34,475 nt of DNA. Origin: Halobaculum sp. CBA1158. GTDB taxonomy: Archaea > Halobacteriota > Halobacteria > Halobacteriales > Haloferacaceae. Numbering within the stretch: the stretch's first letter is position 1; each line of letters begins with the position of its first letter. The stretch covers positions 1 through 34,475 of the forward strand of contig NZ_CP090374.1 in the NCBI RefSeq assembly GCF_021431925.1, written 5' to 3'. This document shows, piece after piece, positions 1 through 34,459 of this stretch. The translations under genes were made by a program, and so were the position numbers. The notes below the pieces were generated by a model. It was given only the letters and a program-made list of their open reading frames with translations. It ran no database searches and was not told the origin of the DNA.

Positions 1-1656
1 ATGACGGACAACGACGACCGGATCGCGCTCGATAACGCCGGTGAAGTAACGCTCCCTACTGTCGAAGTGCTGACTGGACGGGGATTCATCACCGGCAAAT
101 CGGGGTCCGGTAAGTCGAACTCTGCGTCCGTCGTCGCGGAGGAACTCCTTGACCGCGGCTTCCCCATTCTCGTCGTCGACACGGACGGGGAATACTGGGG
201 TCTGAAAGAGGAGTATGAGGTTCTACACGTCGGCGCTGACGAGGAGTGCGACCTCCAGGTCGGCCCGGAACACGCGGGCAAACTCGCCGAGTTGGCGCTG
301 GAGCAGAACGTCCCTATAATCCTCGACGTCTCGGGGTTCCTCGACGAGGACGAAGGCGATGCACTCGTTCGGGAGACGGCCCGCGAACTCTTTCAGCGCG
401 AGAAGAAGCTCAAAAAGCCGTTCCTCATGCTCGTCGAGGAGATCCACGAGTACATCCCCGAGGGCGGCGGCCTCGACGAGACGGGGCGGATGCTTATTCG
501 TGTCGCCAAGCGCGGCCGGAAGCGCGGCCTCGGGCTCGCGGGAATGTCGCAGCGCCCGGCTGACGTCAAGAAGGACTTCATCACGCAGTGCGATTGGCTC
601 CTCTGGCACCGCCTCACCTGGGATAACGACACGAAGGTCGTCCGAAACGTCGTCTCTCGGGACGCAGCGGACGCCGTGCAGGACCTCGCCGACGGCGAGG
701 GTTTCCTCATGGCCGACTTCCTCGAAACGGACCTCCAGCGCGTTCAGGTCCGTCGGAAGCGGACATTCGACGCCGGGTCGACGCCCGACCTTGACGACTT
801 CGAGCGGCCGGACCTCAAGAGCGTTAGTGGCGACCTCGTCAGCGAACTTGAGGAGATCTCCGAGCAAGAGGAGCGCCGCCAGGATCGCATTGGGCAGCTG
901 GAGACTCGGGTCGAGGAACTCCAAGATGAGAAGGCGGAACTGGAAGAAGAACTCGAGAACGCGCGGGACATGCGCGACATGGCGAGCCAATTCGCCGAAG
1001 CCATGCAGTCGAGCGGTGGCAACGGAGACGTCGCGTCCGAGAAGGTAGACGAGCTGATCGACGAGCGGAACGAACTCCGGTCGAAGCTACAGGACCGAGA
1101 ACAGCGCGTCTCGGAGCTTGAGAAGCAGGTAACTGACCTCAAACGGGAACTTTCAGAGCGACCCAAGATCGGCGAGCGGGCCGTGGAAGCGGTTGAGGTG
1201 CTCGCCGAGGAGTTCGGCGTCGGAGGAGAGGACGCCGAGGCTCTGCGACGGAAGCTGAAGACTGCTCGCGAGCGGATAAATGAACTGGAGAACTCAGACC
1301 ACACGGTCACGGCCCCGGACGAGTACGACGAGTTCGTCGACGACGAGTACGTCCAAGACGCGATCGATGACGCAAAGGAAAACAGCGACGCCTCACCGCG
1401 TTACGTGAAGGGTGTCGTCGCCGGTATCCTCCAGCGTGGCGGTCCGGCGTCTCGCGCCGAGATCGCCGACGACCTCGGGATTGAGACGACCGACCACATC
1501 CGGACCGCCATGAAAGCCCTCGAGGACCGCGACGTCGTCTCGCGCTCGGGTAGTGGGGACGACGAGACGGCCGACTTCGCTTTCGATAGTGTTGAGAAGG
1601 TCCACGAGCAGCAGGCTCGGCAGCGGCGGACGGAAGAGGTGATGGATAGCCTATGA
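1..1656 (+). CDS. HerA/FtsK-type P-loop ATPase with coiled coil and C-terminal winged helix
   Basis: This is a HerA-superfamily DNA-pumping ATPase. Walker A is GKSGSGKS at residues 32-39. Walker B is FLMLVEEI at about 141-148, with the double acid typical of the family, followed by a GMSQRP sensor motif near 182. Residues about 278-395 are heptad-rich coiled coil, and about 465-540 look like a winged helix. Such proteins move or unwind DNA during repair, plasmid transfer or genome packaging; which of these applies here is not decided by the sequence. It overlaps the next gene by 4 bases. The frame is open at base 1 and the last 27 bases of the window feed into it in frame, so if the molecule is circular the true start is ATG at 34449 and the protein has 560 residues. 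Confidence 0.85.
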   Translation: MTDNDDRIALDNAGEVTLPTVEVLTGRGFITGKSGSGKSNSASVVAEELLDRGFPILVVDTDGEYWGLKEEYEVLHVGADEECDLQVGPEHAGKLAELALEQNVPIILDVSGFLDEDEGDALVRETARELFQREKKLKKPFLMLVEEIHEYIPEGGGLDETGRMLIRVAKRGRKRGLGLAGMSQRPADVKKDFITQCDWLLWHRLTWDNDTKVVRNVVSRDAADAVQDLADGEGFLMADFLETDLQRVQVRRKRTFDAGSTPDLDDFERPDLKSVSGDLVSELEEISEQEERRQDRIGQLETRVEELQDEKAELEEELENARDMRDMASQFAEAMQSSGGNGDVASEKVDELIDERNELRSKLQDREQRVSELEKQVTDLKRELSERPKIGERAVEAVEVLAEEFGVGGEDAEALRRKLKTARERINELENSDHTVTAPDEYDEFVDDEYVQDAIDDAKENSDASPRYVKGVVAGILQRGGPASRAEIADDLGIETTDHIRTAMKALEDRDVVSRSGSGDDETADFAFDSVEKVHEQQARQRRTEEVMDSL

Positions 1657-2684
1657 GCAGCGACGATCACAACGCGGCTGTCGGTCGGGACGATCTCTCC
1701 GAGTGCTGGTGCTGTAGCGGCCTCCACGACACGTTCGGAACGCTCTGTCCGAACTGCGACGACGCAGGATGCAACCGGTTCACCGACGAGTGCGAGTCCG
1801 ACCACAAGCCGGTCCTCGCCGACGGCGCTGGATCCGAATCTGTGATCCAGCGCCAGAACCAGTTCTGGGCCGGTGCCGCGTCCGGCAGCAGTCGGCAGAT
1901 GCTCGCGAAGGCCCAGAAATGGATGGACGGCGCCCGCCCGTCGCGCATCATGGTCAACTACCAGACCAAGATGAGCGACCGCGACAGCCGCTGGCGGGAC
2001 TACGACCTGTTCATCGACCCCGGAGCCTACTCGATGTTCGCGCCGATCGCGCAGGGGCTCGCCGAATACCCCGAGACGACGGAGACGTACCTGCACGACA
2101 TCGGCCGCGTCCAGCCGGACCGCTACGCGTGGCGGGACTACGTGTGCGAGGACGACGTGCTGGAACACCACGGCTGGACCACTGAACAACAGCAGCAGCG
2201 GACGCTGGAAGCGCATATCGAGTGCGCCGACCTCCACGACGACCTCGGGATTAGCGCGGAGCCGGTCGCGGTGGTCCAGGGGTCGGAACCGGCGGACTAC
2301 GTCGAGCACGCCGAACAACTCGCCGACCACGGGCTCGTCACCGAGCGCGTCGGGATCGGGACGATGTGCGGGCGGAACGACGTGGAGGTGTGCGAGGACA
2401 TCGTCTCGGCGGTCCGCTCGGTGCTGCCGGAGACGGAACTCCACGCGTTCGGGCTCGACCGGCGCTGCTACCAGAGCGAGTACATCATCGACGAGATCTC
2501 GTCGACGGACTCGCTGGCGTACTGCTACCAGTACCGCCGTCCGGAAGGGTGGAAGCGGTGGGAGTTCGTGCTCCAGAAGTACCTTCTACACCGGTCCGAC
2601 TGGGACCGGGCCGTCGGCGGCGCCGAGTACCAGTCGCGCGAGGAGGCATCGGCCGGACAGACCGACCTCGGGGGGTTCGCGTAA
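1653..2684 (+). CDS. DpdA-like DNA 7-deazaguanine transglycosylase (TGT superfamily)
   Basis: The 343-aa protein resembles the short phage-type DpdA / queuine tRNA-ribosyltransferase-like family, whose known members swap guanine in DNA for a 7-deazaguanine base. Visible landmarks are FIDPGAYS (120-127, with an Asp where TGT enzymes have their substrate-pocket DSGGF), the WRDYVCEDDVLE block (160-171), VVQG (207-210), GIGTMC (234-239), FGLDRR (266-271) and STDSLAY (284-290), which contains a candidate catalytic Asp286. An N-terminal cysteine cluster (C18, C20, C21, C32, C35, C40) could bind zinc and is not part of the core. Start ATG overlaps the ATPase stop (ATGA). No queC/D/E/F-like gene is visible in the window; haloarchaea make preQ0 for archaeosine, so the host could supply the base (inference). 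Confidence 0.66.
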   Translation: MSSDDHNAAVGRDDLSECWCCSGLHDTFGTLCPNCDDAGCNRFTDECESDHKPVLADGAGSESVIQRQNQFWAGAASGSSRQMLAKAQKWMDGARPSRIMVNYQTKMSDRDSRWRDYDLFIDPGAYSMFAPIAQGLAEYPETTETYLHDIGRVQPDRYAWRDYVCEDDVLEHHGWTTEQQQQRTLEAHIECADLHDDLGISAEPVAVVQGSEPADYVEHAEQLADHGLVTERVGIGTMCGRNDVEVCEDIVSAVRSVLPETELHAFGLDRRCYQSEYIIDEISSTDSLAYCYQYRRPEGWKRWEFVLQKYLLHRSDWDRAVGGAEYQSREEASAGQTDLGGFA

Positions 2685-3028
2685 TGGATAGATCCGACAC
2701 AGCAGTCGGTCGCTGTCTCGACGACGGCGGTGTCCGGATTGAAGATCCAGACAACGAGGACGCCTGGATCGAGACAGACTACCGCGAAGGCTGGGAGAAG
2801 CGCAAGCTGATGACCGGCGACGGGAGCGCGTACAGTCAGATGACAGCACCGTACTTTCTCAAGTGCCGTTCCTGCCATACCCATCACCCCCCGATCCGCT
2901 GGGGCAAAGGCTCCGAGTATTGCCCGAACTGCGAGCAGCAGTTCGCCTACGCCGTCCCACGAGCGTGGGCGGGCATCTTCGACAATGAGTGGGAAGATAT
3001 GGAGGGAGTCAGCATCAATGACGTCTGA
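2684..3028 (+). CDS. Small zinc-ribbon protein, function unknown
   Basis: The 114-aa acidic protein has two CxxC pairs (KCRSCHTHH and YCPNCEQQ) about 25 residues apart, the pattern of a structural zinc ribbon. ATG at 2684 is chosen because it overlaps the previous stop by one base (TAATG); an open frame continues further upstream but runs out of frame over the DpdA-like gene. Its place directly after the DpdA-like gene in the same operon suggests a co-transcribed accessory protein. I recognise no family. Confidence 0.7.
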   Translation: MDRSDTAVGRCLDDGGVRIEDPDNEDAWIETDYREGWEKRKLMTGDGSAYSQMTAPYFLKCRSCHTHHPPIRWGKGSEYCPNCEQQFAYAVPRAWAGIFDNEWEDMEGVSINDV

Positions 3029-3464
3029 AACAGCCGGTAAAGACGAAGGAGAAGCCTATCAGAAGGTGCTCGTGAATCGCAAGTTCGGCGGGTTCCGACT
3101 CTCGGACGCAGCTCTCGACCGTCTCGTGCGTGAGCACGGATTCACGACGACGGCCTACGATTCCGAGGGGGAGTACGAAGCTCCCGACGCCGACATCATC
3201 GACGATCACACCAAGTTCAGTCGACACTACGGCCTCACGGATCGTCGGTCGTACGATGCCCGCACCGACGACGCGATCATCCAGGTCGTCGAAGAACTTG
3301 GGAAGGAGGCGAGTGGCCGACGCTCAAAAATCGTCGTGGCAGAGGTTCCTGTCGACGTAGACTGGTACATCGACGACTACGACGGCGTCGAGACGATTCG
3401 AGAGAAGCATCGAACGTGGCCCGGCCGCGAGATCGCAGACGGGAGAGTGAATTCAGATGGATAG
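3018..3464 (+). CDS. Conserved-looking haloarchaeal element protein, function unknown
   Basis: The 148-aa acidic protein resembles hypothetical proteins common in haloarchaeal proviruses and plasmids, with a typical C-terminal stretch (VPVDVDWYIDDYDG followed by a HRTWPG block near residue 135). No catalytic motif is obvious. ATG at 3018 is preferred over the longer open frame because it gives a short 11-base overlap with the previous gene, as elsewhere in this operon. I recall the family by eye only. Confidence 0.7.
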   Translation: MTSETAGKDEGEAYQKVLVNRKFGGFRLSDAALDRLVREHGFTTTAYDSEGEYEAPDADIIDDHTKFSRHYGLTDRRSYDARTDDAIIQVVEELGKEASGRRSKIVVAEVPVDVDWYIDDYDGVETIREKHRTWPGREIADGRVNSDG

Positions 3465-9456: not shown

Positions 9457-10939
9457 CGCCGATCACCACCCAGAAGCCGATTCCGACAGCGCCAGCGACC
9501 GCGCTGTACTTCATCAGGTCGCCGTCGGACCACTGCGGGTCGCCGGCGGCGAACTCCTTGGTCGCCTCCGACTCAGCCTTGTCGATGGCGTCGCCGGTCG
9601 CGGCATCCGCGAATCGGGCGAGCCAGTGGTCCGTGCGCACGTACGTGGCACCGTCGTCGATCCTGTCGTTGCGTGGGACGAATGAGTCGTGGCCGGCGTT
9701 GCTGATGCGGCTGGTGGTCGCGAACTCGTGCGGCACGACGCTCGCGCCGCCGTCCGTCATCGCGTTCGCCGGAAGGAGGTTGCCGAGTTCGACCGACGTG
9801 AGCCCAGCGTGTCCGAACGCACCCGGCGAAACCTCGGGCGAGAAACCGACCAAGGTCTTGCAGAACATCGTCGTCGGAACGGACTCGAGGCCAAGCTCGT
9901 CGGCTTCGACGAATCGGTACTGACCGTTCTCGGTCAAGTCGAGCACGGGATCATCGAACGCGGACAGCCCCCACCAGATGATCAGCTCGCCGAGTGAACC
10001 TCCACGGCCGATCGCGCCGGTTAGGGCGGTTAGGATGGGCATGATCGACGCCCCAACCCCCAGGGTAACACCGAAGATCACCAACGTCGCCGGGCCGGCG
10101 ACTACAGCAACCAGTGCGACGAGACCAAAGCCGATGAGCGCGGCGACAGCACCGCCGGCTTGCTTCCACGAGATTTCCTCAGCCGAGGTCGGCATGCTCA
10201 ACAGCAGCAGGCTCCCGACGGTGATCGGCGAGGAGCCACCGCTCGCACCACTGCCGGGCATGTTGCCCGGGCCGAGCACGTAGAAGCCCAGGGCGAACAT
10301 CACGCCGAAGATGATGAACGGCAGCGACAGCTTCAGCACGCCGACCTCGCGCTGGCGGTCGATGTACATCCGCCTCACGGCTTCCCACATGTAGTCGAAC
10401 CAGTCGGCCTTCTCGGAGCCGTCGACGATCGGCCGGATGGACTCGTCGAGATCCATCGACACGGCGGGCCGCTCGCCGAACTCGATCACCCCGCGCACGT
10501 AGTGGGCGATGCGCGTGGGCATGCCTTCGTCATCGAACGCCATGTCGGTGTAGACCATCTCGCCGTCATCTCGGTGGCGGTGTTCCTTTTCGCCGAACGC
10601 CACGTCGCGCAGGTCGAAGGTGACGCCGTACTCTTCGTCGACGAACGTGAACGGCGTCTTTCCGAACCGGTGGACGTTCTTCGCCGTCCGCGTGATCTTC
10701 TTCTCGACGTCGTCGACCGAGATCGTCTCCTGCTCGTACACGGCGTCGAAGGAGAGCTGCCGCAGCGACAGCTCGCCGTTCTTCCCGACGCCGATGGCCG
10801 GGCGCTGGAGCGCCCAGCTGGCGAAGTTGACGTACGCGTTCCCCACACTCGAGGCGACAGGAGTGTGCTTCGCCAGCATCGGGAACACTGCGAGGCCCGC
10901 GACGCCGAACGCCAACCCGAGGATCACCGTATTCAGCAC
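9446..10939 (-). CDS. Large multi-pass membrane protein of the assembly operon
   Basis: The 497-aa protein has an N-terminal membrane helix (about 3-22), a charged domain of about 170 residues, then a hydrophobic core (about 203-225 and several helices between 240 and 310), a second soluble part (about 320-475) and a C-terminal helix (last 20 residues). It starts at GTG 10939, overlapping the small upstream gene by 7 bases. It could be the membrane partner of the nearby P-loop ATPase in an assembly or export machine. I recognise no family. Confidence 0.68.
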   Translation of the reverse strand: MLNTVILGLAFGVAGLAVFPMLAKHTPVASSVGNAYVNFASWALQRPAIGVGKNGELSLRQLSFDAVYEQETISVDDVEKKITRTAKNVHRFGKTPFTFVDEEYGVTFDLRDVAFGEKEHRHRDDGEMVYTDMAFDDEGMPTRIAHYVRGVIEFGERPAVSMDLDESIRPIVDGSEKADWFDYMWEAVRRMYIDRQREVGVLKLSLPFIIFGVMFALGFYVLGPGNMPGSGASGGSSPITVGSLLLLSMPTSAEEISWKQAGGAVAALIGFGLVALVAVVAGPATLVIFGVTLGVGASIMPILTALTGAIGRGGSLGELIIWWGLSAFDDPVLDLTENGQYRFVEADELGLESVPTTMFCKTLVGFSPEVSPGAFGHAGLTSVELGNLLPANAMTDGGASVVPHEFATTSRISNAGHDSFVPRNDRIDDGATYVRTDHWLARFADAATGDAIDKAESEATKEFAAGDPQWSDGDLMKYSAVAGAVGIGFWVVIGVVL

Positions 10940-11103
10940 GAATACCCCACCTCTTTGACCGGCAGACTGCCGTTCTCGGTCCCGTGCGGGGGCATACGCC
11001 CATCATAGCACAACAGCGAACCTGCTCCCCGGGAAGGGTGACGCTGTTCTGATCTAGACCCTATTGAGTTGTTGTTGTCGGCTGTAGGTTGTCGTGTCGT
11101 CAT
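10933..11103 (-). CDS. Small protein, 56 aa
   Basis: ATG at 11103 overlaps the ATPase stop (ATGA) and the frame ends 7 bases inside the next gene, the spacing used throughout this operon. The peptide is polar with two cysteines (LLCYDG and the final GYSC). Composition is less acidic than its neighbours, so coding status is not certain. Confidence 0.4.
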   Translation of the reverse strand: MTTRQPTADNNNSIGSRSEQRHPSRGAGSLLCYDGRMPPHGTENGSLPVKEVGYSC

Positions 11104-11957
11104 GCGGTTTGCTTTCCTCCAGACTGTTCGTTTGACAAACGCTGCCTGTACCACTCGCCAGAGTAGGTGAGTTCGATGCCAGCGTACTCCTCTTCATTGT
11201 CGTTGACGACTGCTGGAAGGTTACGCCACGAACAATCGATGTCTTTGCTCTGGAAGTACGCTTGGCGCGCCCACCGGAGCTGTTCCTCATCGGGCAGTTC
11301 ACCGTCGCCATCGTCACCACCCTTCGTCTTGGCCTTCTGCTTCTTGCGCTCCATCACGACGTAATCCTCGTCATCCTCTGGAATCGCAGGCCAGTCGAGG
11401 AACTCCACGATGGGCGTGCGCATCCCATCACCAGCATCGGGATAGTCCTCTGTGAACACCTTATGGTGTTTCACCTCCGGGCCGCCGATCTGGCCGGGTG
11501 CCTTGGAGATCAGCAACCAGGCGTCAATCAGCGGGAAGAAGTCTGAGAACAGCATCCCGAGTCGTTGAACTACCACGACGACGGTTAGGTTCTTGTCTCG
11601 GTTCGCAAGCAGCGACCCGATCGCGTCCATCGTTGACTGCGACATGGCTCGCATCCGATTCATCCCAGAGCCGCCGCCAGGTGTCCCCTGCGTCTCGTCG
11701 ATGAGGACGGCCGCCTGGTCCGGCGCATCTGGGATCACCTCGTTTGCAAACTCGTCTGCCGAGAGCGTTGCCTGCGACTCTGCATCGAACCCGTCCTCGG
11801 ACCGGTCAAGCGATTTAGCCACACCAGTCCCGAGTGTGGTCTTCCCCGTGCCCGAAACCGGCGTTCGCGAGCTTGCAGAGATGCAGACGATGAAGTCGTT
11901 CGTCGGCGGGAGGACGACCTGCTCGTACCAGTTCCGGTAGAGAACACTCCGGTTCAC
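11100..11957 (-). CDS. P-loop ATPase of the assembly module
   Basis: The 285-aa protein has an N-terminal P-loop (TPVSGTGKTT, about 32-41) in which Pro replaces the usual first Gly of GxxxxGKT. Walker B is AAVLIDETQ (82-90), and a VVVVVQRL strand (126-133) follows at the sensor position. It resembles the NTPases of haloarchaeal pleomorphic viruses and Zot-like assembly ATPases in size and motif spacing, by eye only. It starts at GTG 11957, sharing one base with the upstream stop. It is probably the motor for assembly, packaging or extrusion at the membrane. Confidence 0.72.
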   Translation of the reverse strand: MNRSVLYRNWYEQVVLPPTNDFIVCISASSRTPVSGTGKTTLGTGVAKSLDRSEDGFDAESQATLSADEFANEVIPDAPDQAAVLIDETQGTPGGGSGMNRMRAMSQSTMDAIGSLLANRDKNLTVVVVVQRLGMLFSDFFPLIDAWLLISKAPGQIGGPEVKHHKVFTEDYPDAGDGMRTPIVEFLDWPAIPEDDEDYVVMERKKQKAKTKGGDDGDGELPDEEQLRWARQAYFQSKDIDCSWRNLPAVVNDNEEEYAGIELTYSGEWYRQRLSNEQSGGKQTA

Positions 11958-12718
11958 TACTGATCACCGATGAGTTGCTCAAACTGCTCGCGGCTGATCT
12001 CGCCCGCCTCGATGGCGTCTCGGATCTCGTGCGGCAGCACGGTGTCAGTCTCCCACGGCCAGGAACCGTCTCCAGTCCCGGCGTGGTTACGCGGCCTTCC
12101 TTCGCCGATATTGAGGCCCATCTGAGCGTCTTCGAGCGCCTCGGAAGCGACTTGGACAGCCGAGTCGAGAATGGCTCGCTGCAGTTCTGTTTCAACTGTC
12201 TGCGAGACTGGCCGATAGTCTTCCGAGCCCTCCATCACAACAACCGAGAACTGCCGCTGAATGGGTGACGGCAACTCTAAGATCTGCTTAAGTCCGACAA
12301 CCTCGATTGTTTTCGCTTTCGGAACCGCCGCACCGCTCGGGAGCCGGTCGATATTCGACTTGGCGAACTGGACAAGATCTCGGGGGGCATGGACGCTCAT
12401 TGTCCCTATCTCTACCTCGCTCGCGTACTCTTCCTCAAGCGAGAGCGCGTCGCTTTCCAACACCGGGAGCAGCTGCATAATAAGCGACTCGACAGCGCGG
12501 CGGTAGTAGCGCCGTCCTTGCTGCTCCGTGATAGCGCCGGTGATCAGTTGCTCGCCGACCCCGTCGCGAACGGTCACGGCGCGGTCGTGGGCGTTGTGAA
12601 TCGCCGTCAGCCGGCGCTTGTGGCTGTACTTCTCTTCGTCGATGACCTCCGACTCGGCGTGTTCTGCTTCAACTTCAATTTCCGAGCCAGACTGGCCATG
12701 GCCGTTCTGAATTGCCAT
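11957..12718 (-). CDS. Unknown 253-aa cytosolic protein, ATPase partner
   Basis: The protein is acidic and largely helical, with no membrane segment. The C-terminal SWPWETDTVLPHEIRDAIEA segment (about 222-241) with a helix-loop-helix look may be an interaction motif. Start ATG overlaps the previous stop, and its own stop overlaps the ATPase start, so the two are coupled. Function unknown. Confidence 0.68.
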   Translation of the reverse strand: MAIQNGHGQSGSEIEVEAEHAESEVIDEEKYSHKRRLTAIHNAHDRAVTVRDGVGEQLITGAITEQQGRRYYRRAVESLIMQLLPVLESDALSLEEEYASEVEIGTMSVHAPRDLVQFAKSNIDRLPSGAAVPKAKTIEVVGLKQILELPSPIQRQFSVVVMEGSEDYRPVSQTVETELQRAILDSAVQVASEALEDAQMGLNIGEGRPRNHAGTGDGSWPWETDTVLPHEIRDAIEAGEISREQFEQLIGDQ

Positions 12719-13260
12719 CAGCTACGGATCCTCGACAGCAGGCGGCCACCACTATCGGAGCCGCCAGCACGGTCTACGATACTGTGCCGGATCGAAGAGA
12801 GCACCGATCGGACAAGCGCGCCGTCCTTGCCCTTCATCACTCGAGCCTTGTAGGACTGCGTCAGCGTCTCGTACTGGGCGAGATCGCCGCGGTCTTGCGG
12901 CCGAAGGCCGGCGTTCGGGTCGTCGTGCGCCCACTCGCGAAGCACACCGGTCACGTCCTGTCCCGGATGCGGGTATCGTGCCTTCTTCTTCATGAGGGCG
13001 ACATCGCCATACGCGCGGAACTCCGAGATCTGCTCCTCGTCGAAGTTAGACGTAGGGATGTCCTTCGTGAGCAGATTTCGGAACGCCTGATCGTCGACCT
13101 CCTCGCGGAGATCTGACTCGGATAGCTCTTGGATCAGTTCTGTCTGATTCTCCTCTTCCTCAGGCAACTGCAGCCCGGTGAGACCTGCCTGCGTCTCCTC
13201 TTGGCGGCGCTGCTGTTCGTCGGGATCGGGTTGCGACGGACCCTTGTTACGGAGCACCAC
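12718..13260 (-). CDS. Unknown 180-aa cytosolic protein
   Basis: The polar, Gln/Glu-rich N-terminal 60 residues look disordered; the rest is helical with basic patches (for example ALMKKKARYP). The C-terminus has an Arg/Gly/Ser tail. It overlaps the upstream membrane protein by 14 bases and the downstream gene by 1. No family recognised. Confidence 0.65.
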   Translation of the reverse strand: MVLRNKGPSQPDPDEQQRRQEETQAGLTGLQLPEEEENQTELIQELSESDLREEVDDQAFRNLLTKDIPTSNFDEEQISEFRAYGDVALMKKKARYPHPGQDVTGVLREWAHDDPNAGLRPQDRGDLAQYETLTQSYKARVMKGKDGALVRSVLSSIRHSIVDRAGGSDSGGRLLSRIRS

Positions 13261-21445: not shown

Positions 21446-21482
21446 CAGTCCTCGGTAATTGAGCCTCAATTCTCAAATTCAG
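21446..21482 (+). repeat. Left terminal inverted repeat of the transposon
   Basis: 31 of 37 positions match the right repeat. It includes the transposase stop codon at 21466-21468. Confidence 0.8.
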
Positions 21483-23352
21483 GATGACCTTCGAGAAGGA
21501 ACGGATAGCCGTCGCCGAACACCTCTCGAACGATGTTACTTCGAACTGATAGGTCGCGTACTTCGCCAACGTCGATGTCCTCCATGTCGAGCAGCATGGC
21601 GACCATGAACTGATTCGCTGTGAACGGGTATCGGCCCTGGTCGTCCTTCACCGGCCGGTCGTTCTCGACGGCGTACGTCACGTTCGACGCCATCCACATC
21701 GCGTTGTAGATGAACGCCATGTTGGCGATGAACTCCCGCTGACTCCGTAGCTCGCTCGCAGACTTCGCCGTGAAGTCGTGCTTCATCAGCCGATACGCCG
21801 TCTCTATCGTCCACCGCTGCCGGTACCGCCGCCCAATCTCCAGGCCGCCGAACTCCTCGGGATCGAGATTCGTGTAGTACACCTCCCAATTCCCCTTGTC
21901 CTCCGTGCCCGTCTCGGCCCGCTCGATCCGCTTCTTCGACGGCATCGTGATCAGCCACGACTCCGCCTCACTCTCGGGGACTACCTCACCGAGGCGGACA
22001 TCGTACCCCGCCGCGTTGTAGTCCAAGTCGTAGTGGATGGCGGCCTCCTTCAGGTTGTCAATGATGGCCGGCGGGCGGGCGCGCAGTCGGCTGATGAACT
22101 TGAGGTCGTGTTCTTCGAGGCAGTTCTGCATCCCGCGGCCGTAGAACCCGCCGTCCATGCAGACGACGTCCGGTTCGACGTAGTGCTTCGCGTACGTCAG
22201 CATCTCGTCTATCTGGTGCTCGATGTTCCCGCGCCGCTGGATGCTCTTCGCGGCCAGCGTGACGGGCATCTCGACGTTGGCGAGGCTGATGCTGGCGATC
22301 TGGAACGCGAAGGCGCTCCCGGCCTTCTGGTCCACACCCTCCACGCCGATAGGCTGGTCCTCGTGCGGGATGTCGTCGCGGTCGAGCCGCTTCCCGTCCT
22401 CGTCTTTCTCCGTCGAGTGCCGCCCGTACCACATCAGGTTGGTCAGGTCCATAGCGAGGTCGGACCGGTCCGGGAGATAGCCGTACTCGTCGAGAACCAT
22501 GATGATGCGCTCCAGGGCGGCGAGGTACATCTTCCGCAGTTCGAAGGTGTCGTACTCGCGGAGCTGGTTCCAGAGTGCTTTGAACCCGGGCGCGTCCCGG
22601 TAGTAGAAGTACGGCAGGAACCGCAGCGAGGCCTCGGCATCGTTCGGGTGAATGTTGCATAGTCCGGCGATTTCCATCAGCTTGAACAACTGCCATTTCG
22701 GGTACGTGACCCTGGACTCGTCGCGGTCCAACTGGATGAATTGGTACGCGAGCTTCCGCATTTCCCGGGAAATGAGCACCAGTTCGGGTTCCCCGCGCCC
22801 GTCCGCGGTCGCGGCGGGGAGCGTCACGATCTCGTCGTTGTCCTCCAGCTGCTCCACGATCTCTCGGAGGCGGTGGCTGACGTCCGGGCCGATCTGCGCC
22901 TCCACCTCTTCGCTGATCCGCTCGATGGTGTTCTCGGTGACGACGTCATTTAGACCGAGACGCTCGGCAGCGCCGTCTTTGAGTTCGTCCTCGATGGCGT
23001 AGTCTTTCGAGGAACTGAGCGACCGGTACAGGAACAGGCGAGCGGCGTCCTCTTCGTCGAGCTTGTACCAGTTCTTCTCCAGGCTCCAGAAGGGGACGTT
23101 TCCGGTGTAGAGGTCGAGTTTCCCGACGGCTTCCTCCGGCGAGAGGCCTTGATCGAGGTAGCGGAGGAGTTGCGTCTCCAGGTCGAGATTGCCTTCTATC
23201 TGCGTGATGAGCGACGGACCGGAACTGGATTCGGAGATGTCGAAGTCGTCGATAGAAGGCTCGTCAAGGTCGCTGTCGGAGTCCTCGGAGTCTTCGGGTG
23301 GCTCCAGAAAGCGGTCAGGCGTTCGTCCATCGATGTCCGGTTCCCGCGACAC
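21466..23352 (-). CDS. YREK-type DDE transposase, unusually long
   Basis: The 628-aa protein has the IS4-superfamily core: Asp302 (MDLTNLMWYG), Asp400 (CMDGGFYG) and the perfect Y-2-R-3-E-6-K signature at Y510, R513, E517 and K524. The core closely fits ISH3/IS4-like halophile transposases, but those are usually about 380-450 residues; here an acidic N-terminal extension of roughly 200 residues (with a disordered Asp/Glu/Ser start) is added. GTG at 23352 is the start: a TATA-like TTTTAAGTA lies about 30 bp upstream, giving a leaderless message of its own. Confidence 0.85.
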   Translation of the reverse strand: MSREPDIDGRTPDRFLEPPEDSEDSDSDLDEPSIDDFDISESSSGPSLITQIEGNLDLETQLLRYLDQGLSPEEAVGKLDLYTGNVPFWSLEKNWYKLDEEDAARLFLYRSLSSSKDYAIEDELKDGAAERLGLNDVVTENTIERISEEVEAQIGPDVSHRLREIVEQLEDNDEIVTLPAATADGRGEPELVLISREMRKLAYQFIQLDRDESRVTYPKWQLFKLMEIAGLCNIHPNDAEASLRFLPYFYYRDAPGFKALWNQLREYDTFELRKMYLAALERIIMVLDEYGYLPDRSDLAMDLTNLMWYGRHSTEKDEDGKRLDRDDIPHEDQPIGVEGVDQKAGSAFAFQIASISLANVEMPVTLAAKSIQRRGNIEHQIDEMLTYAKHYVEPDVVCMDGGFYGRGMQNCLEEHDLKFISRLRARPPAIIDNLKEAAIHYDLDYNAAGYDVRLGEVVPESEAESWLITMPSKKRIERAETGTEDKGNWEVYYTNLDPEEFGGLEIGRRYRQRWTIETAYRLMKHDFTAKSASELRSQREFIANMAFIYNAMWMASNVTYAVENDRPVKDDQGRYPFTANQFMVAMLLDMEDIDVGEVRDLSVRSNIVREVFGDGYPFLLEGHPEFEN

Positions 23353-23380
23353 GTTTCCCGGACAATACAGCAGTTCGGTA

Positions 23381-23388
23381 CTTAAAAC
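23381..23388 (-). promoter_or_regulatory. TATA-like box for the transposase
   Basis: TTTTAAGTA on the minus strand lies 25-35 bp before the GTG at 23352, the distance expected for a leaderless haloarchaeal message. It sits in the 42-bp gap after the last passenger gene. Confidence 0.45.
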
Positions 23389-23394
23389 GAACCG

Positions 23395-23832
23395 TCAGTA
23401 CACCGAATTCCGGGCCCATGCCGGGTACTCCGTGTAGACCGCGTCGAGTAGGTCCGTCAGGTCCTCGGTCGGGTACTCGTCGAACACGTCCCGAGCAGCT
23501 GCGCGGAGATCGTCGTGTTCGGCGTGCCCGAAGACGTCGTCGATGGCCGGACCGGCGCTGTAGTGGTATCGGATCCGGCCGTCGTCGTCCTTGATCTCCT
23601 CCTCGGTGACGTACTGGTTCTCGATGCAGTAGTCTACGACCGGGTAGAGGCCCTTGGCGAACGGGCCGTAGTCGCCCGCCTCGAAGACAAACCAGTTCTC
23701 TCCGACCTCCTGCTGGAACGCAAACATCAGCTTCTGGATGTACGTTCGCCCCTCCAGCTCGTGCGGGGCTTCATCGAAAAGGATGCACAGCGCCATCTCC
23801 TGGACGTGGCGCGGTGCTGGTTGCGGCTTCAT
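23395..23832 (-). CDS. Panacea/SocA-like protein, possible antitoxin-type partner
   Basis: The 145-aa protein has TYIQKLMFAFQ (about 30-40) followed by FVFEAGDYGPFAKGLYPVVDY (about 47-67) and a C-terminal YPAWARNSVY. The order Q-K-L..F followed by GP...LY resembles the Panacea (SocA/DUF4065) fold known as the neutralising half of diverse toxin-antitoxin pairs and as a proteolytic adaptor. The likeness is by eye and weak in places. It is the last passenger gene, just before the transposase, and overlaps the zinc-ribbon gene upstream by 4 bases. Confidence 0.5.
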   Translation of the reverse strand: MKPQPAPRHVQEMALCILFDEAPHELEGRTYIQKLMFAFQQEVGENWFVFEAGDYGPFAKGLYPVVDYCIENQYVTEEEIKDDDGRIRYHYSAGPAIDDVFGHAEHDDLRAAARDVFDEYPTEDLTDLLDAVYTEYPAWARNSVY

Positions 23833-24056
23833 ATCCCCACGACCTCGTCGAGTACGATCTCTTCTGAGACGAAGCCACCGGTGACGTTCGGGCGGTCTTT
23901 CCCGATGGTCAGGACGCCCTCAACGTTGCACTGGCGGCATTGGTATCGAACCATCCGTTGCCAAGCCCGGTCCGGGTTTTCTGCGTCCCACGTTGATTTA
24001 GGTGCCATCGAACCGCCGCAGTGAGTGCATCGTCGGTCGGGTTCATCTTCCTTCAT
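23829..24056 (-). CDS. Zinc-ribbon protein, 75 aa
   Basis: CTHC at about residues 10-13 and CRQC near 40-43 form a two-pair zinc ribbon, followed by an acidic tail. ATG at 24056 is 7 bases after the previous stop. Function unknown; protein or nucleic-acid binding are both possible. Confidence 0.6.
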   Translation of the reverse strand: MKEDEPDRRCTHCGGSMAPKSTWDAENPDRAWQRMVRYQCRQCNVEGVLTIGKDRPNVTGGFVSEEIVLDEVVGI

Positions 24057-24063
24057 CGAGGTG

Positions 24064-24282
24064 TTACCCCCACGGATCCGGGCCGTAGCTACAGCCCCGG
24101 ATCGGCTCCCAATCGCTCCAGTCCGTGTCCATCGCCTCTTTCAGCGGCATCGCGTCGTAACTGATCGGAAGCATCAGTCGGCAGTTCTCACAGACGACGC
24201 CGAGTACGGCTCGTTCGTAGCCGATTTGCGTAGTCGTCGAGTCGCATCGAGGACAGTCACCGCCGTCTTCTCCGGGACTCAT
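24064..24282 (-). CDS. Zinc-ribbon protein, 72 aa
   Basis: CPRC (about 10-13) and CENC (about 30-33) form the ribbon; a Trp-rich acidic tail (DTDWSDWEPIRG) follows. ATG at 24282 is chosen because it overlaps the upstream peptidase stop (ATGA). Confidence 0.6.
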   Translation of the reverse strand: MSPGEDGGDCPRCDSTTTQIGYERAVLGVVCENCRLMLPISYDAMPLKEAMDTDWSDWEPIRGCSYGPDPWG

Positions 24283-24818
24283 ATTCCGAGCCACTCCTTG
24301 CACTGCTGGATGTAGTTACGGTTGTTTTCCCGGTACTCCAGCGCCCTCTGGCAGATGTTCGGCCACTCTTCACGAGGTACCGACGGCTCACCGAGATACG
24401 GAACGCGGTCCTCGTCGATCACATCGGGTGGCATCCGCGCGACCGAGTAGATCGAGCAAAACTCTTCGCTGGTCTTGGCGACGTCCTCGCCGTTCTCATG
24501 GCGAACGCGGATGGCGACGTGGCCGAGTTCGTGCCAGAGCGTGACGTTCGTCGTGTGCTCCTCGGGCGGCAGGCAGATGAGCCGGTTGTAACCGAACGCT
24601 TGCGCCTGTGCGTCCGCGTTCTCGTAGAGAACACCGACGTTGATGGTCTCGTGAGCCAGCGCCGGGAAGTCTTTCAGTGCGATGGGGAGTCGCTTCTTGA
24701 TGCTCTCCAGTACGTCCTCGTCGGCCTGACCGCCGAAGTGTTCGAGGACACGCCAAGCGGCGAGACCGCGAACCTCTCGACCGTCGCGTTCGTAGTTGAT
24801 TGAAACACGCTGGCTCAT
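24279..24818 (-). CDS. ImmA/IrrE-like zinc metallopeptidase
   Basis: The 179-aa protein has TLWHELGHVAI with the zinc site His96-Glu97-x-x-His100, followed by SEEFCSIYSVARMP (117-130), which matches the E...FA..LMP pattern of ImmA/IrrE peptidases and supplies the third ligand (Glu118 or Glu119). Characterised members cleave phage or stress repressors. Here the likely substrate would be a regulator of this transposon or its host replicon (inference). ATG at 24818 overlaps the stop of the 41-aa zinc ribbon upstream. Confidence 0.68.
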   Translation of the reverse strand: MSQRVSINYERDGREVRGLAAWRVLEHFGGQADEDVLESIKKRLPIALKDFPALAHETINVGVLYENADAQAQAFGYNRLICLPPEEHTTNVTLWHELGHVAIRVRHENGEDVAKTSEEFCSIYSVARMPPDVIDEDRVPYLGEPSVPREEWPNICQRALEYRENNRNYIQQCKEWLGI

Positions 24819-24940
24819 GCTGCCTCCTCCGTCGGATCCCACCCGACGTTGTACCGCTCGCAGTCGGGGTTCGTGCAGGTCACTCGATCCATCCCGTCGA
24901 GCGGGTAGACGTCGGAGCCGCAGTTTGGACAGCCGTTCAT
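24815..24940 (-). CDS. Tiny zinc-ribbon protein, 41 aa
   Basis: MNGCPNCGSD starts a 41-residue protein with CPNC (4-7) and a second pair (CTNPDC, 22-27). Both ends overlap neighbours by 4 bases (ATGA), which strongly supports it despite its size. It is likely a free-standing zinc ribbon. Confidence 0.6.
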   Translation of the reverse strand: MNGCPNCGSDVYPLDGMDRVTCTNPDCERYNVGWDPTEEAA

Positions 24941-25191
24941 AGCTCTTCGAGCCTCCACCGAAGCTGGATGCACAAGGCGGCGAGATCGTCCAATTCGGCT
25001 GCGATTCGTGCAGCGTCACCGTCCTCGTGCTCTGCCTCCAGGTACGCCTGTGCGAGTTCTCCCTGTTCTTCCTGCATTGCCAGAAGGAGCGTGTCGATCT
25101 CTTGGAGACCCCACTCTTCGACGTTCTCTTCGGCCCTCTCTCGCCAGTACGCCAGTTCCATCTTTGCCGAGGTCTGGTTTACGTCAGTCAC
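24937..25191 (-). CDS. MazG-like all-alpha NTP pyrophosphohydrolase-type protein
   Basis: The 84-aa helical protein has QEEQGELAQA (about 40-49) and a later ELDDLAALC (about 65-73), the EExxE then ExxD spacing of MazG/dUTPase-type all-alpha nucleotide pyrophosphohydrolases. These remove unusual or excess nucleotides and are common in phages. The protein is at the short end of the family, so activity is uncertain. Overlaps at both ends place it in the operon. Confidence 0.6.
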   Translation of the reverse strand: MTDVNQTSAKMELAYWRERAEENVEEWGLQEIDTLLLAMQEEQGELAQAYLEAEHEDGDAARIAAELDDLAALCIQLRWRLEEL

Positions 25192-25514
25192 GCCGACCCC
25201 TCCATCAGCGTGTACTGCTCGTGCTGGCCGGGCTCGATGTCGTCCTCATCAAGAATCTGGAGACAACCACGGCAGTACGTTCCGATGATCTCCTCCTCGT
25301 CTTCATCGGGGATAGTCAACGTCTGCCCCTCCGCTCGCTGGTGGCCGCACCCATCGCACCGAGTGGCGTTGTCGGGGTGTGGGTCCGAGTACGGGTAGAT
25401 GTCCGCGCAGTATGGACACCCACCGTCAAGGGTTGGCTCGTCCTGCGGCATCCCGCAGTGGTGGCATCGGGATTGTTCAGTCGCGGTCGCATCACCCCGT
25501 CGCACCCCGGACAC
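25188..25514 (-). CDS. Zinc-ribbon protein with several CxxC pairs, 108 aa
   Basis: Four CxxC pairs (CHHC, CPYC, CDGC, CRGC) suggest two zinc ribbons. GTG at 25514 is the only plausible start in frame, and it overlaps the next gene upstream by about 200 bases in another frame. The two may be one gene split by a missing base: the span 25188-25648 is one base short of a multiple of three and the upstream frame ends with another complete CxxC pair. Confidence 0.5.
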   Translation of the reverse strand: MSGVRRGDATATEQSRCHHCGMPQDEPTLDGGCPYCADIYPYSDPHPDNATRCDGCGHQRAEGQTLTIPDEDEEEIIGTYCRGCLQILDEDDIEPGQHEQYTLMEGSA

Positions 25515-25648
25515 CGGAGCACGTCACCAGTCTTGTAGAGTGAGTCCCCGGCCCACGTCGATCCGCAGTGCTGGCACATGACGGGGTTCTCGTCGCCGTG
25601 TGCCCACTTCCGTGGTTGATTGAATTCAGAAATCTCAGGTTCGGGCAA
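25316..25648 (-). CDS. N-terminal zinc-ribbon part, probably frame-shifted against the next gene
   Basis: The 110-aa frame begins MPEPEISEFNQPRKWAHGDE and has a clean zinc ribbon (CQHC and CPGC). After about residue 60 it turns basic and repetitive (Thr/Arg-rich), unlike haloarchaeal protein, while the other frame there is acidic with good CxxC pairs. I read the true N-terminus as joining the 25188-25514 frame through a one-base shift between about 25480 and 25515. Confidence 0.5.
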   Translation of the reverse strand: MPEPEISEFNQPRKWAHGDENPVMCQHCGSTWAGDSLYKTGDVLRCPGCDGVMRPRLNNPDATTAGCRRTSQPLTVGVHTARTSTRTRTHTPTTPLGAMGAATSERRGRR

Positions 25649-25856
25649 GGGTCGGCACCTCCTTCACATCGCTAATCTCTTGACGGGTGAGCTTGCCGAA
25701 CATCGGTTTGTCGTACCAGTTCTGCACCAGACCGACAGCGACCACGTCACCGTTGTGACAGTCGTCGCAGATCGGTCTGTGCTTCTCGTCTACGTAGACG
25801 AGCCGGACACTGCCGAACGGTTCGCCACACCCCTCACACTGAAGTAACTCGCTCAT
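25635..25856 (-). CDS. Zinc-ribbon protein, 73 aa
   Basis: CEGC (7-10) and CDDC (about 30-33) form a ribbon with a small beta insert; the tail is polar. Overlaps neighbours by 14 and 4 bases. Function unknown. Confidence 0.6.
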   Translation of the reverse strand: MSELLQCEGCGEPFGSVRLVYVDEKHRPICDDCHNGDVVAVGLVQNWYDKPMFGKLTRQEISDVKEVPTLART

Positions 25857-26095
25857 GCGTGGAATGTTACCTCAACGCCGTTGTATTCGAGCACGCGGTC
25901 GCCGCACTCCGGGCACTCGGTCGGGATGTGGTCCGCGAATTGAATTCGGTCGTAGCCATCTACTTTGACGTCCGACGGGTCGATCTCGACGCTGGTCAGC
26001 CACCCGTCGCAGAGGTCGGGCTCGTACTCGTGAATCATGCAGCGGATAGCGAGGTTGTTCTTCCGCAGCTCGTCGGGGACGCGGTCGAAGCTCAT
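25853..26095 (-). CDS. Small protein with C-terminal CxxC, 80 aa
   Basis: The N-terminal half is polar with isolated cysteines (C19, C29); the C-terminal half has TECPECGD and a strand-rich end. Overlaps both neighbours (ATGA). No family recognised. Confidence 0.58.
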   Translation of the reverse strand: MSFDRVPDELRKNNLAIRCMIHEYEPDLCDGWLTSVEIDPSDVKVDGYDRIQFADHIPTECPECGDRVLEYNGVEVTFHA

Positions 26096-26382
26096 GCCTC
26101 AACCTCCACGCCGTCGTAGAACTCTTCGAATCCATCGGGGAGGGTCTCACGAGCCCACTTGAAGGCATCCTCGTGATTCATCCACTCCGGGAGTTCGGCG
26201 AGTGCCTCGCGTTTGTAGCAGACGCCAATTACTTCCCTTCCGTCTTCGGTCTTGACGATGACGCGCGGCATCCACGTCTTCGGCTTCTTGCCGGCAATTA
26301 CCGTTCGCTCGCCGTCTTCGTCCTCCCAAGCGGAGTTCCCTCCTTGACACCGCATCAACGATACGTATTTTACAGTCGTCAT
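26092..26382 (-). CDS. Unknown 96-aa protein
   Basis: ATG at 26382 starts MTTVKYVSLMRCQGG; the sequence is acidic with alternating beta and helix and a conserved-looking MPRVIVKTEDGREVIG stretch near 40-55. The longer frame upstream (to 26919) is rejected because it crosses the structured non-coding stretch and loses acidic composition. No TATA box is visible right before it. Confidence 0.55.
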   Translation of the reverse strand: MTTVKYVSLMRCQGGNSAWEDEDGERTVIAGKKPKTWMPRVIVKTEDGREVIGVCYKREALAELPEWMNHEDAFKWARETLPDGFEEFYDGVEVEA

Positions 26383-26410
26383 GTTCTCACGGCGTAGGTC
26401 GCCACCCGAG

Positions 26411-26437
26411 TGGGCCAATCGAGATTTGAACTCGATT
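26411..26437 (-). other. tRNA-like T arm with acceptor-like 3' strand
   Basis: The minus strand has a 7-bp stem around the T loop TTCAAAT, followed directly by TTGGCCC and A, the layout of a tRNA 3' end. No matching 5' GGGCCAA with D and anticodon arms was found upstream. Confidence 0.3.
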
Positions 26438-26597
26438 CGTGGCTTCTCTTCACCGCGGGGCAGTCCCTTTACCTCGCGGATGCACCGGTCCGGGTGCCGC
26501 ACAGCGGCGCTCCCGGGCGGCGTGCCGGGGCGTCCCCCGGTTACGGGACATCCCGCGACTCGGTTCATTCCACCACGCACGTCCATGTGGCCCAAGT

Positions 26598-26622
26598 GCC
26601 CGCCCGGGGAGTCGAACCCCGA
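26598..26622 (-). other. tRNA-like T arm with acceptor-like 3' strand
   Basis: CGGGG-TTCGACT-CCCCG is a canonical T arm followed by GGCGGGC and A. The expected 5' partner GCCCGCC is not found at a normal distance. Candidate tRNA 3' fragment or RNA motif. Confidence 0.35.
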
Positions 26623-26920
26623 CGCACGCGACCGTCTCCCCATCGCCCCGTTCCGGTGTGCCGTGGTAGGCGTGAGGGGCTGCGCCGGTTGCTGCGTGAG
26701 CAGCGGCCCGTCACGGGCCATCGCCGACGGTGTCGGGTACGCTTGGTCGCGCTCCACCGCGGTGCGGGCTCGCAGGAGATAAGCGGCCAGAGCCCCGAGC
26801 GTGCTTGTAGAGCGCGGGTAAATGGTTAGTGGATCCAGGGTCAGCGCCGCGGCTTCTTCTCTCGCTCGCGGGCTGCCTGAACGCGCTCGACTCGGGTGCA
26901 TCTGATCGCTCACCTCCAAG

Positions 26921-26959
26921 GCCCCGGCGCGGAGTCGAACCGCGCTGCTCCAACGGGGC
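26921..26959 (-). other. Minimal tRNA-like fold (acceptor plus T arm only)
   Basis: On the minus strand GCCCCG, an 8-nt linker TTGGAGCA, a 6-bp T arm (GCGCGG-TTCGACT-CCGCGC) and CGGGGC fold into an acceptor/T-arm minihelix of 39 nt lacking D and anticodon arms. It begins exactly at the stop codon of the 42-aa gene, so it would be in the message. The same layout occurs at 33297-33337. Confidence 0.45.
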
Positions 26960-27087
26960 TACGCCGCCTCAATCGTCTTCAGTACGTCCACGATGGCCCC
27001 GCACTCGGGGCACACCGGGTAGTGGTCGTCGCGCTGGCAGTCGTCACCAGCCCACTCGCAGCGAGTGCAGCGGAAGTCAGGCGTCAT
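26959..27087 (-). CDS. Tiny zinc-ribbon protein, 42 aa
   Basis: MTPDFRCTRCEW begins a 42-aa protein with CTRC, a middle Cys, and CPEC. ATG at 27087 is one base after the previous stop. Its stop codon touches the tRNA-like fold. Confidence 0.58.
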   Translation of the reverse strand: MTPDFRCTRCEWAGDDCQRDDHYPVCPECGAIVDVLKTIEAA

Positions 27088-27088
27088 T

Positions 27089-27484
27089 TCAGGCCCTCTC
27101 CACATCTTCGCTGGAGACGGCGACCATTCCGGGGTCGGCGAAGAACGCCGCCTTGGCGATGCTGATGTTGTCGAGCGTGTCCGCGTCGGTCACGATGCTG
27201 TCGCCTTCGCAGGTCATGACGACTACACCGCTGCGGTGCATCCAGATCGAGACGCCGACTCCCGCGTGGTTCCAGTGCTTGGAATGCAGGTCACCGGGTG
27301 CGCTGAGAATCGAGTCGTCTTCCTCGATAGCCGCCCGAACTCCCTTCTTCAGTTCAATTAGTTGGCGGGCCGTCAGGGCGTCCTCGGGCGCGTCGCCGGG
27401 GTGGACCCAATTGAGGAGTTCCGCCTTCTTCTGGCTGGTCTCGTCTTCTTCCTCGGTCGGTCGCTGAGCCACTTCTGCGCTCAT
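27089..27484 (-). CDS. First gene of the passenger operon, 131 aa, unknown
   Basis: ATG at 27484 gives an acidic mixed alpha/beta protein with no cysteine motifs. A Trp/His-containing strand region (HWNHAGVGVSIWMHRSG) is the most distinctive part. A TATA-like element centred near 27510 and the operator at 27517 place transcription start at the ATG, so the message is probably leaderless. The longer frame upstream is rejected. Confidence 0.6.
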   Translation of the reverse strand: MSAEVAQRPTEEEDETSQKKAELLNWVHPGDAPEDALTARQLIELKKGVRAAIEEDDSILSAPGDLHSKHWNHAGVGVSIWMHRSGVVVMTCEGDSIVTDADTLDNISIAKAAFFADPGMVAVSSEDVERA

Positions 27485-27516
27485 ATCAACCCATTCAATC
27501 CCGATGTACTTAGTAG

Positions 27517-27533
27517 TTGTGCATACTGCACAA
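27517..27533. promoter_or_regulatory. Operator in the divergent passenger promoter
   Basis: TTGTGCA-TAC-TGCACAA is a perfect 7-bp inverted repeat. It lies between the shared TATA-like element (GTACTTAGTAG, about 27505-27515) and the rightward ATG at 27539, where the winged-helix protein encoded there would repress itself and, from the other side, the passenger operon. Confidence 0.6.
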
Positions 27534-27538
27534 GTAGT

Positions 27539-27868
27539 ATGGATGGGCAGACCCCAAAGGCAAAGTGCGTAGGACTGGTTACTTTGCACATGGCCCGCGC
27601 ACAGCCAATGCACACACCGATGGATGAGGACGATCTCCGCCCCGCAGATGAGGCTATCCTCGACGTTCTACAGCAGGGGCGCGCGACCAAGGGCATGCTC
27701 GTAGACGAGTCCGGCTACTCACGGAACACGATCTACAACCGACTGGAGGTTCTGGAGGCCGCGGGCCACGTCCGCGTCGTTCACGAATCGACCCGCCTCT
27801 TCGAGCTGGTCAGCGACCCGCGCGACGGTAGTCAGAAATCAGATACATCGGCCGAAAACGGCGACTGA
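27539..27868 (+). CDS. Winged-helix transcriptional regulator of the transposon
   Basis: From ATG 27539 the protein has 109 residues. The core DEAILDVLQQGRATKGMLVDES followed by GYSRNTIYNRLEVLEAAGHV (about 37-75) is the winged-helix type common to haloarchaeal virus and plasmid repressors; a near twin is the regulator at 32495. A TATA-like box about 30 bp upstream makes this a leaderless start; ATG 27590, 27608 or 27620 are alternatives. It diverges from the passenger operon across a palindromic operator. Confidence 0.72.
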   Translation: MDGQTPKAKCVGLVTLHMARAQPMHTPMDEDDLRPADEAILDVLQQGRATKGMLVDESGYSRNTIYNRLEVLEAAGHVRVVHESTRLFELVSDPRDGSQKSDTSAENGD

Positions 27869-27912
27869 ATTACTCGGGGACAACGTACGAAATGAAGGAC
27901 CAACTCACGAAT

Positions 27913-27949
27913 CTGAATTTGAGAATTTACGACCAATTACCGAGGACTG
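27913..27949 (-). repeat. Right terminal inverted repeat of the transposon
   Basis: Exact complement of the left end in 31 of 37 positions. A degenerate relative of its outer part (AATTACTCGGGGAC) also lies at about 27868-27881. Confidence 0.8.
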
Positions 27950-32139: not shown

Positions 32140-32147
32140 GCCGTTCC

Positions 32148-32436
32148 GGGTCGAACGTTCTTCCCACCCGGTCGGTTCCTGAGGGGTGGGTCGAACGTTC
32201 TTCCCACCCGATTGGTGGAATGGGGGGTCGAACATGACCCCGAGACGCGGCGGGAAGCCGCCTCCGACACGCTCCACGTCTCACTTACGTTACGACGTGT
32301 CGCGTAACTTACTCGCTTTCGCGGTTCGTTAGAGCGTGGTGCGGTAGTTGCTGCGGTGTTGCTGCGGTGGTGGTAGGGGTGGGTGGGGACCGAGAATCGG
32401 GTGGGAAGAACGTTCGACCCGATTTCCGTTCGACCC
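32148..32436. repeat. Iteron-like repeats, candidate replication origin
   Basis: Three exact 23-bp copies start with GGGTCGAACGTTC: 32148-32170 and 32188-32210 (direct, 40 bp apart) and 32398-32420 (inverted). Shorter GGGTCGAAC copies lie at 32225-32233 (direct) and 32428-32436 (inverted). They flank a stretch with a GTTACG...CGTAAC inverted repeat and a purine-rich run. There is no supported gene from 32140 to 32494. Replication origin, partition site or regulator site are the options. Confidence 0.55.
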
Positions 32437-32494: not shown

Positions 32495-32986
32495 CTACCG
32501 CGGCGACCAGTACACCGCCGTCTGATTCCTGTTCACGCCATCCGATGCGTCGACGGCGGCGTTCACCGCCTTACGCCATGACTCACCGCCGACGCCGACG
32601 CCTAGCTCGTCGGCGCTGTCTTTGATCTCGGCGGACGTGTACCGTGCGCCGCGTCGGATCCGCGTGAGCAAGAGCGCGCACGCCTGCACGCGGTCGTCGG
32701 TCTTGCTGATGTCCTCCCACTCGACACGCTCGACCAACTCGACGAGATCGGCGTCGGCCTCGCGTACCTCATGCGGGGCGACAGCCTCGCCGGTCTCGTG
32801 GGTCAGCTCGTACAGACCCTTGTGGACGCGTTCAACGTCGCCCGTCAGCCGCAGGTCCCGCAGCTTGTTATTGATAAGTTGGCCGCTCTCGCCGGTACGT
32901 GACGCCAGATACCCGGGCGTTGCGCGACCGTCCTCGAGTAACTCGAGTATCTCGTGGTGCAGGTCGTCGAGTTCATCGCTACTCAT
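32495..32986 (-). CDS. Winged-helix repressor, 163 aa
   Basis: ATG at 32986 starts MSSDELDDLHHEILELLEDG and a winged helix (RATPGYLASRTGESGQLINN, about 21-40) ending GLYELT, the pattern of haloarchaeal virus repressors. A second acidic domain (about 65-163) may dimerise or sense a signal. GTG at 33010 is an alternative start. TATA-like AATATA near 33020 lies upstream. It diverges from the operon at 33.4 kb, which it probably controls. Confidence 0.7.
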   Translation of the reverse strand: MSSDELDDLHHEILELLEDGRATPGYLASRTGESGQLINNKLRDLRLTGDVERVHKGLYELTHETGEAVAPHEVREADADLVELVERVEWEDISKTDDRVQACALLLTRIRRGARYTSAEIKDSADELGVGVGGESWRKAVNAAVDASDGVNRNQTAVYWSPR

Positions 32987-33119
32987 GTGGGGTACGAGTT
33001 GTGTGCTCACGTGGATCGTATATTGGTTGGCATTTTGTAAGTGATTTTCGGCGGTCTAATGGCTGTGTGTTGGTACTACAAACGGTGTGTGGTGTGCAAA
33101 TTGCGACGCAAACACTAAG

Positions 33120-34185: not shown

Positions 34186-34459
34186 GGATCCGTACAGCAC
34201 GCCCTTCAGGTACGAGACTGGCGACAGGTTCCGCACCAGCTTGGAAACGTGGAAGTGGGAGGTTTGCAAGCGCCTCACGGCTGAGGATGGCGAGCCGTAC
34301 TACTACCTCGACGGTGTCGGCGACGACAACCTCGGGAAGTCGAAGCTCATCGCCGAGGAGAGTCTGAATGCTCACTTCGAGCATATGGCAGTAGTCACCG
34401 ACGGCGGTGTCGATAGATCCGAGAGCGAGATCCAACGGAGGAAAGACCATGTCAACTGA
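34175..34459 (+). CDS. Unknown 94-aa protein
   Basis: ATG at 34175 gives MAREDPYSTPFRYETGDRFR; aromatic-rich, with KSKLIAEESLNAHFEH near 60-75. The longer frame upstream is basic and rejected. Its stop lies 11 bases inside the frame that runs off the window end. Confidence 0.55.
   Translation: MAREDPYSTPFRYETGDRFRTSLETWKWEVCKRLTAEDGEPYYYLDGVGDDNLGKSKLIAEESLNAHFEHMAVVTDGGVDRSESEIQRRKDHVN

Follow-up and report, generated by a model that had tools for sequence, protein, structure and literature searches.

The DNA analysed was the forward strand of contig NZ_CP090374.1 of Halobaculum sp. CBA1158, positions 1-34,475. This window of 34,475 bp is the complete contig C4 of a four-contig haloarchaeal genome. 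The following features were assigned to the gene run that contains dpdA:

1..1656, + strand: HerA/DUF87-type ATPase with a long coiled coil and a C-terminal HTH-like region (DUF87, 38.4 bits; HerA profiles; possible start at 34449)
1653..2684, + strand: dpdA-like gene for a product of 343 aa; the TGT-fold core spans residues ~63-330, with D122, D162, Q209-G210, G236 and D286 aligned with the active site
1653..1856, + strand: N-terminal extension of DpdA with the cysteine cluster CWCC-x10-CPNC-x4-C-x6-C (translation, alignment)
2684..3028, + strand: protein of 114 aa, zinc-ribbon-like by its CRSC...CPNC motif (sequence; Zn_ribbon sub-threshold at 13.7 bits)
3018..3464, + strand: 148-aa phage-type protein, next gene of the run (phrog_16527, 6.9e-25)

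The dpdA gene overlaps the ATPase gene upstream (ATGA) and the ORF 2684-3028 downstream (TAATG), and the ORF 3018-3464 overlaps that of the 114-aa protein by a few bases. Because of these short overlaps, the four genes are predicted to be expressed together, probably as a single transcript. Within the phage collection, the 148-aa protein was related solely to proteins of three bacterial phages, which infect Paenibacillus, Vibrio and Rhodobacteraceae; this links archaea and bacteria.

The contig is probably a circular plasmid. The frame of the ATPase runs open through the contig ends, which is consistent with a circular molecule; an ATG preceded by GGAGG is located at 34449, although the annotated start of an ATPase relative from Halopiger coincides with position 1. 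Among the larger ORFs, no capsid, portal or tail matches were obtained beyond coiled-coil hits, and many ORFs had no match. The ATPase scored 62 bits against phrog_2666, 'terminase large subunit', but is nonetheless a protein of the HerA type. Neither Rfam matches nor ARAGORN tRNA calls were obtained in the window, and the 867-aa protein encoded by the element had no plasmid relative. At 32147-32421, next to a winged-helix-like gene (32495-33010, - strand), CGGGTCGAACGTTCTTCCCACCCG occurs three times in nearly identical form, twice in direct and once in inverted orientation; these repeats are possibly the plasmid origin. A further region (21446-27949) is bounded by 37-nt inverted repeats, 89% complementary and ~6.4 kb apart, around a DDE transposase gene (21466-23352), and is a possible transposon with cargo.

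The original prediction had described the product of 1653-2684 as a short, phage-type DpdA with the landmarks of the TGT superfamily, and had proposed a profile search against DpdA and TGT families as a check. This search upheld the assignment: the protein scored 49.9 bits against the Pfam DpdA family PF23859 (curated cut-off 27), matched phrog_1279 of the PHROG profiles with an E-value of 1.9e-20, and gave no match to the tRNA TGT family PF01702 at E 0.01. Against the PADLOC DpdA profile, 27.4 bits were obtained. The score against NF041059, the NCBIfam equivalog for the long bacterial type of DpdA, was 29.6 bits and thus below the cut-off of 200. Together with the placement in the tree described below, the profile matches identify the gene product by sequence as a short, phage-type DpdA of the TGT superfamily. 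It is the only PF23859 gene in the Halobaculum genome.

The structure of DpdA was modelled with AlphaFold (AF2) using an input alignment of 13 archaeal sequences, resulting in pLDDT values mostly above 85 across residues ~120-290. Among solved structures, the model came closest to the archaeosine TGT 1iq8 (Z 20.8), to TGTs from bacteria and to 7ui4, the DpdA that inserts preQ0 into DNA (Z 19.7 over 236 residues; Foldseek E 9.6e-8). HMM-HMM alignment of the DpdA profile with a TGT profile built from 30 mostly archaeal sequences gave P 92.7% and E 4.4e-7, and placed D122, D162, Q209 and D286 on D95, D130, Q169 and D249 of 1iq8 from Pyrococcus. In TGTs, these positions are well established as the acid/base, the base-binding residues and the nucleophile. 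In the alignment of the 13 archaeal relatives, D122, D162, Q209, G210, G236, H264, F266-G267 and D286 were invariant; the two aspartates named in the original prediction, Asp122 and Asp286, thus fall on the catalytic positions. The CxCx2C zinc motif C-terminal to the active site, which is found in archaeal TgtA, is absent from the DpdA translation. A DNA substrate cannot be told from an RNA substrate by fold and catalytic residues.

The nearest relatives of DpdA were four chromosomal genes of Halosimplex aquaticum and one gene in another genome (G184), with 72-74% identity in the core. Other short archaeal DpdAs, 26-43% identical, were found on plasmids of haloarchaea and Thermococcus, on viral contigs and in genomes. 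In the tree, DpdA was sister to the five Halosimplex-type genes (support 100/100), and the short phage-type group was separated from tRNA TGTs and long DpdAs (support 96/90). Many haloarchaeal genomes encode long proteins (~730-1030 aa) in which one region weakly resembles DpdA (L037-L052); the tree keeps DpdA apart from them. The dN/dS ratio was 0.22-0.27 between DpdA and its closest relatives, which argues for a gene under selection and not a chance ORF. With values of 0.03-0.13 among the copies, purifying selection on this dpdA family is indicated. Ten congeners in the sample were without a close copy (E 0.001), and dpdA is therefore probably mobile. A single-protein scan of the viral contigs with DpdA gave no match; with an alignment as query, eight loci were matched.

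The predicted extra cysteine cluster at the N-terminus was present in the translation, with seven cysteines within residues 18-47 (C18, C20, C21, C32, C35, C40 and C47). The closest relatives lack it, as their sequences align only from about residue 57 of DpdA onwards. An alternative GTG start at 1842 is possible; the long form from 1653 is favoured because of the ATGA overlap at this position and the coding-like composition of 1653-1856 (GC of 0.61/0.51/0.81 at the three codon positions). The cysteine region had no confident fold in the AF2 model (pLDDT <50) and probably binds a metal, likely zinc. In other haloarchaeal members, CxxC pairs of a different kind are located N-terminally (L015, L016, L024, L030) or C-terminally (L004, L031, L032, L033). 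Since these members sit in at least three places of the tree, such metal-binding additions appear to have arisen repeatedly.

The four H. aquaticum genes (L009-L012) encode 289 aa each and are located on the chromosome. They are part of four diverged copies of a ~3.3-kb unit, at ~9528-12850 in each locus, which consists of a ~78-aa ORF, dpdA and a DUF7845 gene; in L012, the DUF7845 copy is seemingly interrupted by a ~1.06-kb insertion. Intact tRNA genes for Ala, Ile and Val precede three of the four copies by ~150-200 bp. The fourth lies downstream of a tRNA 3' end, which possibly belongs to an intron-containing tRNA gene that was not called by ARAGORN. This arrangement suggests integration of the units at tRNA genes. 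In a search for att-site duplication, the 3' ends of the tRNA genes beside two copies occurred only once in that genome, and no repeats of tRNA ends were found within the loci, so that excision sites are at most putative.

The substrate was predicted to come from the archaeosine pathway of a haloarchaeal host, and the genes in question were detected on the host chromosome. QueC scored 164 bits and thus over the equivalog cut-off of TIGR00364, TgtA (507 aa) and ArcS scored 614 and 827 bits, and a PTPS/QueD-like gene scored 87 bits; the QueC and PTPS matches were confined to contig C1. With QueC, a QueD-like gene, the archaeosine TGT and ArcS on the chromosome, a supply of preQ0 is to be expected. 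The element itself has none of these four genes, and dpdA, as the sole PF23859 gene of the genome, is a lone transglycosylase there, as had been proposed. Searches of the two flanking ORFs with PADLOC and of the larger ORFs with Pfam matched no Dpd partner genes.

From the family, fold and active-site residues of DpdA and the pathway genes of the host, a lone DpdA using host preQ0 is the best explanation, and it is considered likely that the enzyme inserts this base into DNA, probably that of the element itself. The host would supply preQ0, made for archaeosine in tRNA, to the plasmid-borne enzyme, which would perform a base exchange of the TGT type with D286 as the nucleophile, D122 as the acid/base, and D162 and Q209 in base recognition. 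A part of the guanines would thereby be replaced by 7-cyano-7-deazaguanine, with the DNA of the element itself as the most likely target, and restriction enzymes would cut the modified DNA less well. Zinc is probably bound by the cysteine-rich N-terminus, which may aid DNA binding. From these comparisons we infer that the enzyme acts on DNA, that preQ0 is the inserted base, that the benefit is protection and that zinc is bound.

Points that weigh against this explanation are the missed cut-off of NF041059, the low levels published for DpdA alone, and a fold and active site that would suit an RNA substrate as well. A phage DpdA expressed alone in preQ0-making E. coli resulted in dPreQ0 at 0.03-0.3% of G in plasmid DNA and no EcoRI resistance; together with gat-queC, dG+ reached 9-18% of G with partial EcoRI resistance (PMC6884629). 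In Salmonella phage 7-11, which has a lone DpdA, only 0.02% dADG was found (PMC6884629). In view of the low dPreQ0 levels, a lone DpdA may modify DNA lightly. Conversion of dPreQ0 in DNA to dG+ by ArcS was judged unlikely by the same authors because of its PUA domain (PMC6884629).

Alternatively, DpdA may act on any DNA, including the chromosome or incoming DNA, and serve in marking or in conflict between elements instead of self-protection. Phage DpdA modified the plasmids tested in E. coli and not viral DNA alone (PMC6884629), the nearest relative is present in four chromosomal copies in H. aquaticum, and the larger ORFs of the 34,475-bp element included no recognisable restriction nuclease, all of which agree with a general activity. 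A rare gene on mobile DNA is better explained by self-protection, however, and a partner nuclease was not found either, so that a general activity appears rather unlikely.

The genes of the HerA-type ATPase and the zinc-ribbon protein had been described as co-transcribed with dpdA, and the overlapping start and stop codons of the three genes would suit one functional system, with the ATPase moving or opening DNA so that bases can be exchanged. A functional partnership was not substantiated by comparative data. The ATPase family occurs on ~20 haloarchaeal plasmids, and dpdA was not found beside any of the four ATPase relatives inspected. Elsewhere, dpdA relatives have other neighbours, and none was detected in common with the element beyond dpdA itself; a relative of the zinc-ribbon ORF was found next to neither ATPase nor dpdA relatives. 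A common system of the three proteins is therefore very improbable. The least probable reading is a tRNA transglycosylase of the archaeosine or queuosine type raising tRNA modification, which shares fold and active-site residues with archaeosine TGT but is contradicted by the lack of the CxCx2C motif and of a C-terminal domain like that of host TgtA, by the TgtA and ArcS already present in the host, by the match to the DpdA profile and not to PF01702, and by the position in the tree apart from TGTs.

If insertion of host preQ0 by the lone DpdA is true, a resident archaeal plasmid would hypermodify DNA with a single gene and a precursor of host tRNA modification, and the reach of 7-deazaguanine in DNA outside viruses would be shown. 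The case is easily testable, since the chromosome would provide preQ0 and one gene would do the rest.

Compared with known systems, DpdA shares the TIM-barrel core and the catalytic residues with the archaeosine tRNA TGT (TgtA, 1iq8; Z 20.8) and differs in the absence of the CxCx2C zinc motif and of C-terminal tRNA-binding domains. The Dpd-island DpdA of bacteria is a longer protein which acts with DpdB and further Dpd proteins. It has the TGT fold in common with the element protein (7ui4, Z 19.7), whereas the NCBIfam cut-off for this type is not reached. The short phage DpdAs of phrog_1279 (mycobacteriophages, phiLM21, vir519) belong to the same profile family and length class, with 24-31% identity, and most of the matches begin downstream of the cysteine cluster; vir519 has an archaeal host assigned, and Mycobacterium is without preQ0 genes (PMC6884629). 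The H. aquaticum copies, 72-74% identical in the core, differ in their length of 289 aa, the lack of the cysteine cluster and their chromosomal position by tRNA and DUF7845 genes. For virus HVTV-1, the possibility was raised that a DpdA homolog encoded by its host, H. vallismortis, modifies the viral DNA (PMC6884629). The haloarchaeal tailed virus HRTV-29 has a lone DpdA without preQ0 genes, for which hijacking of host preQ0 was proposed (PMC8651126). It likewise represents a lone DpdA on a haloarchaeal mobile element, but a virus and not a plasmid; the likeness is drawn from the published description, as HRTV-29 was not located in the phage collection with protein queries. The idea of the lone DpdA is thus already published for HRTV-29 (PMC8651126), and new are the plasmid as carrier, the N-terminal cysteine cluster and the four tRNA-adjacent copies in Halosimplex aquaticum. 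As a tentative extension, which we hold to be somewhat doubtful, plasmids and tRNA-linked chromosomal units beyond viruses might carry lone DpdAs, some with terminal zinc ribbons, that use host preQ0 to mark non-viral DNA.
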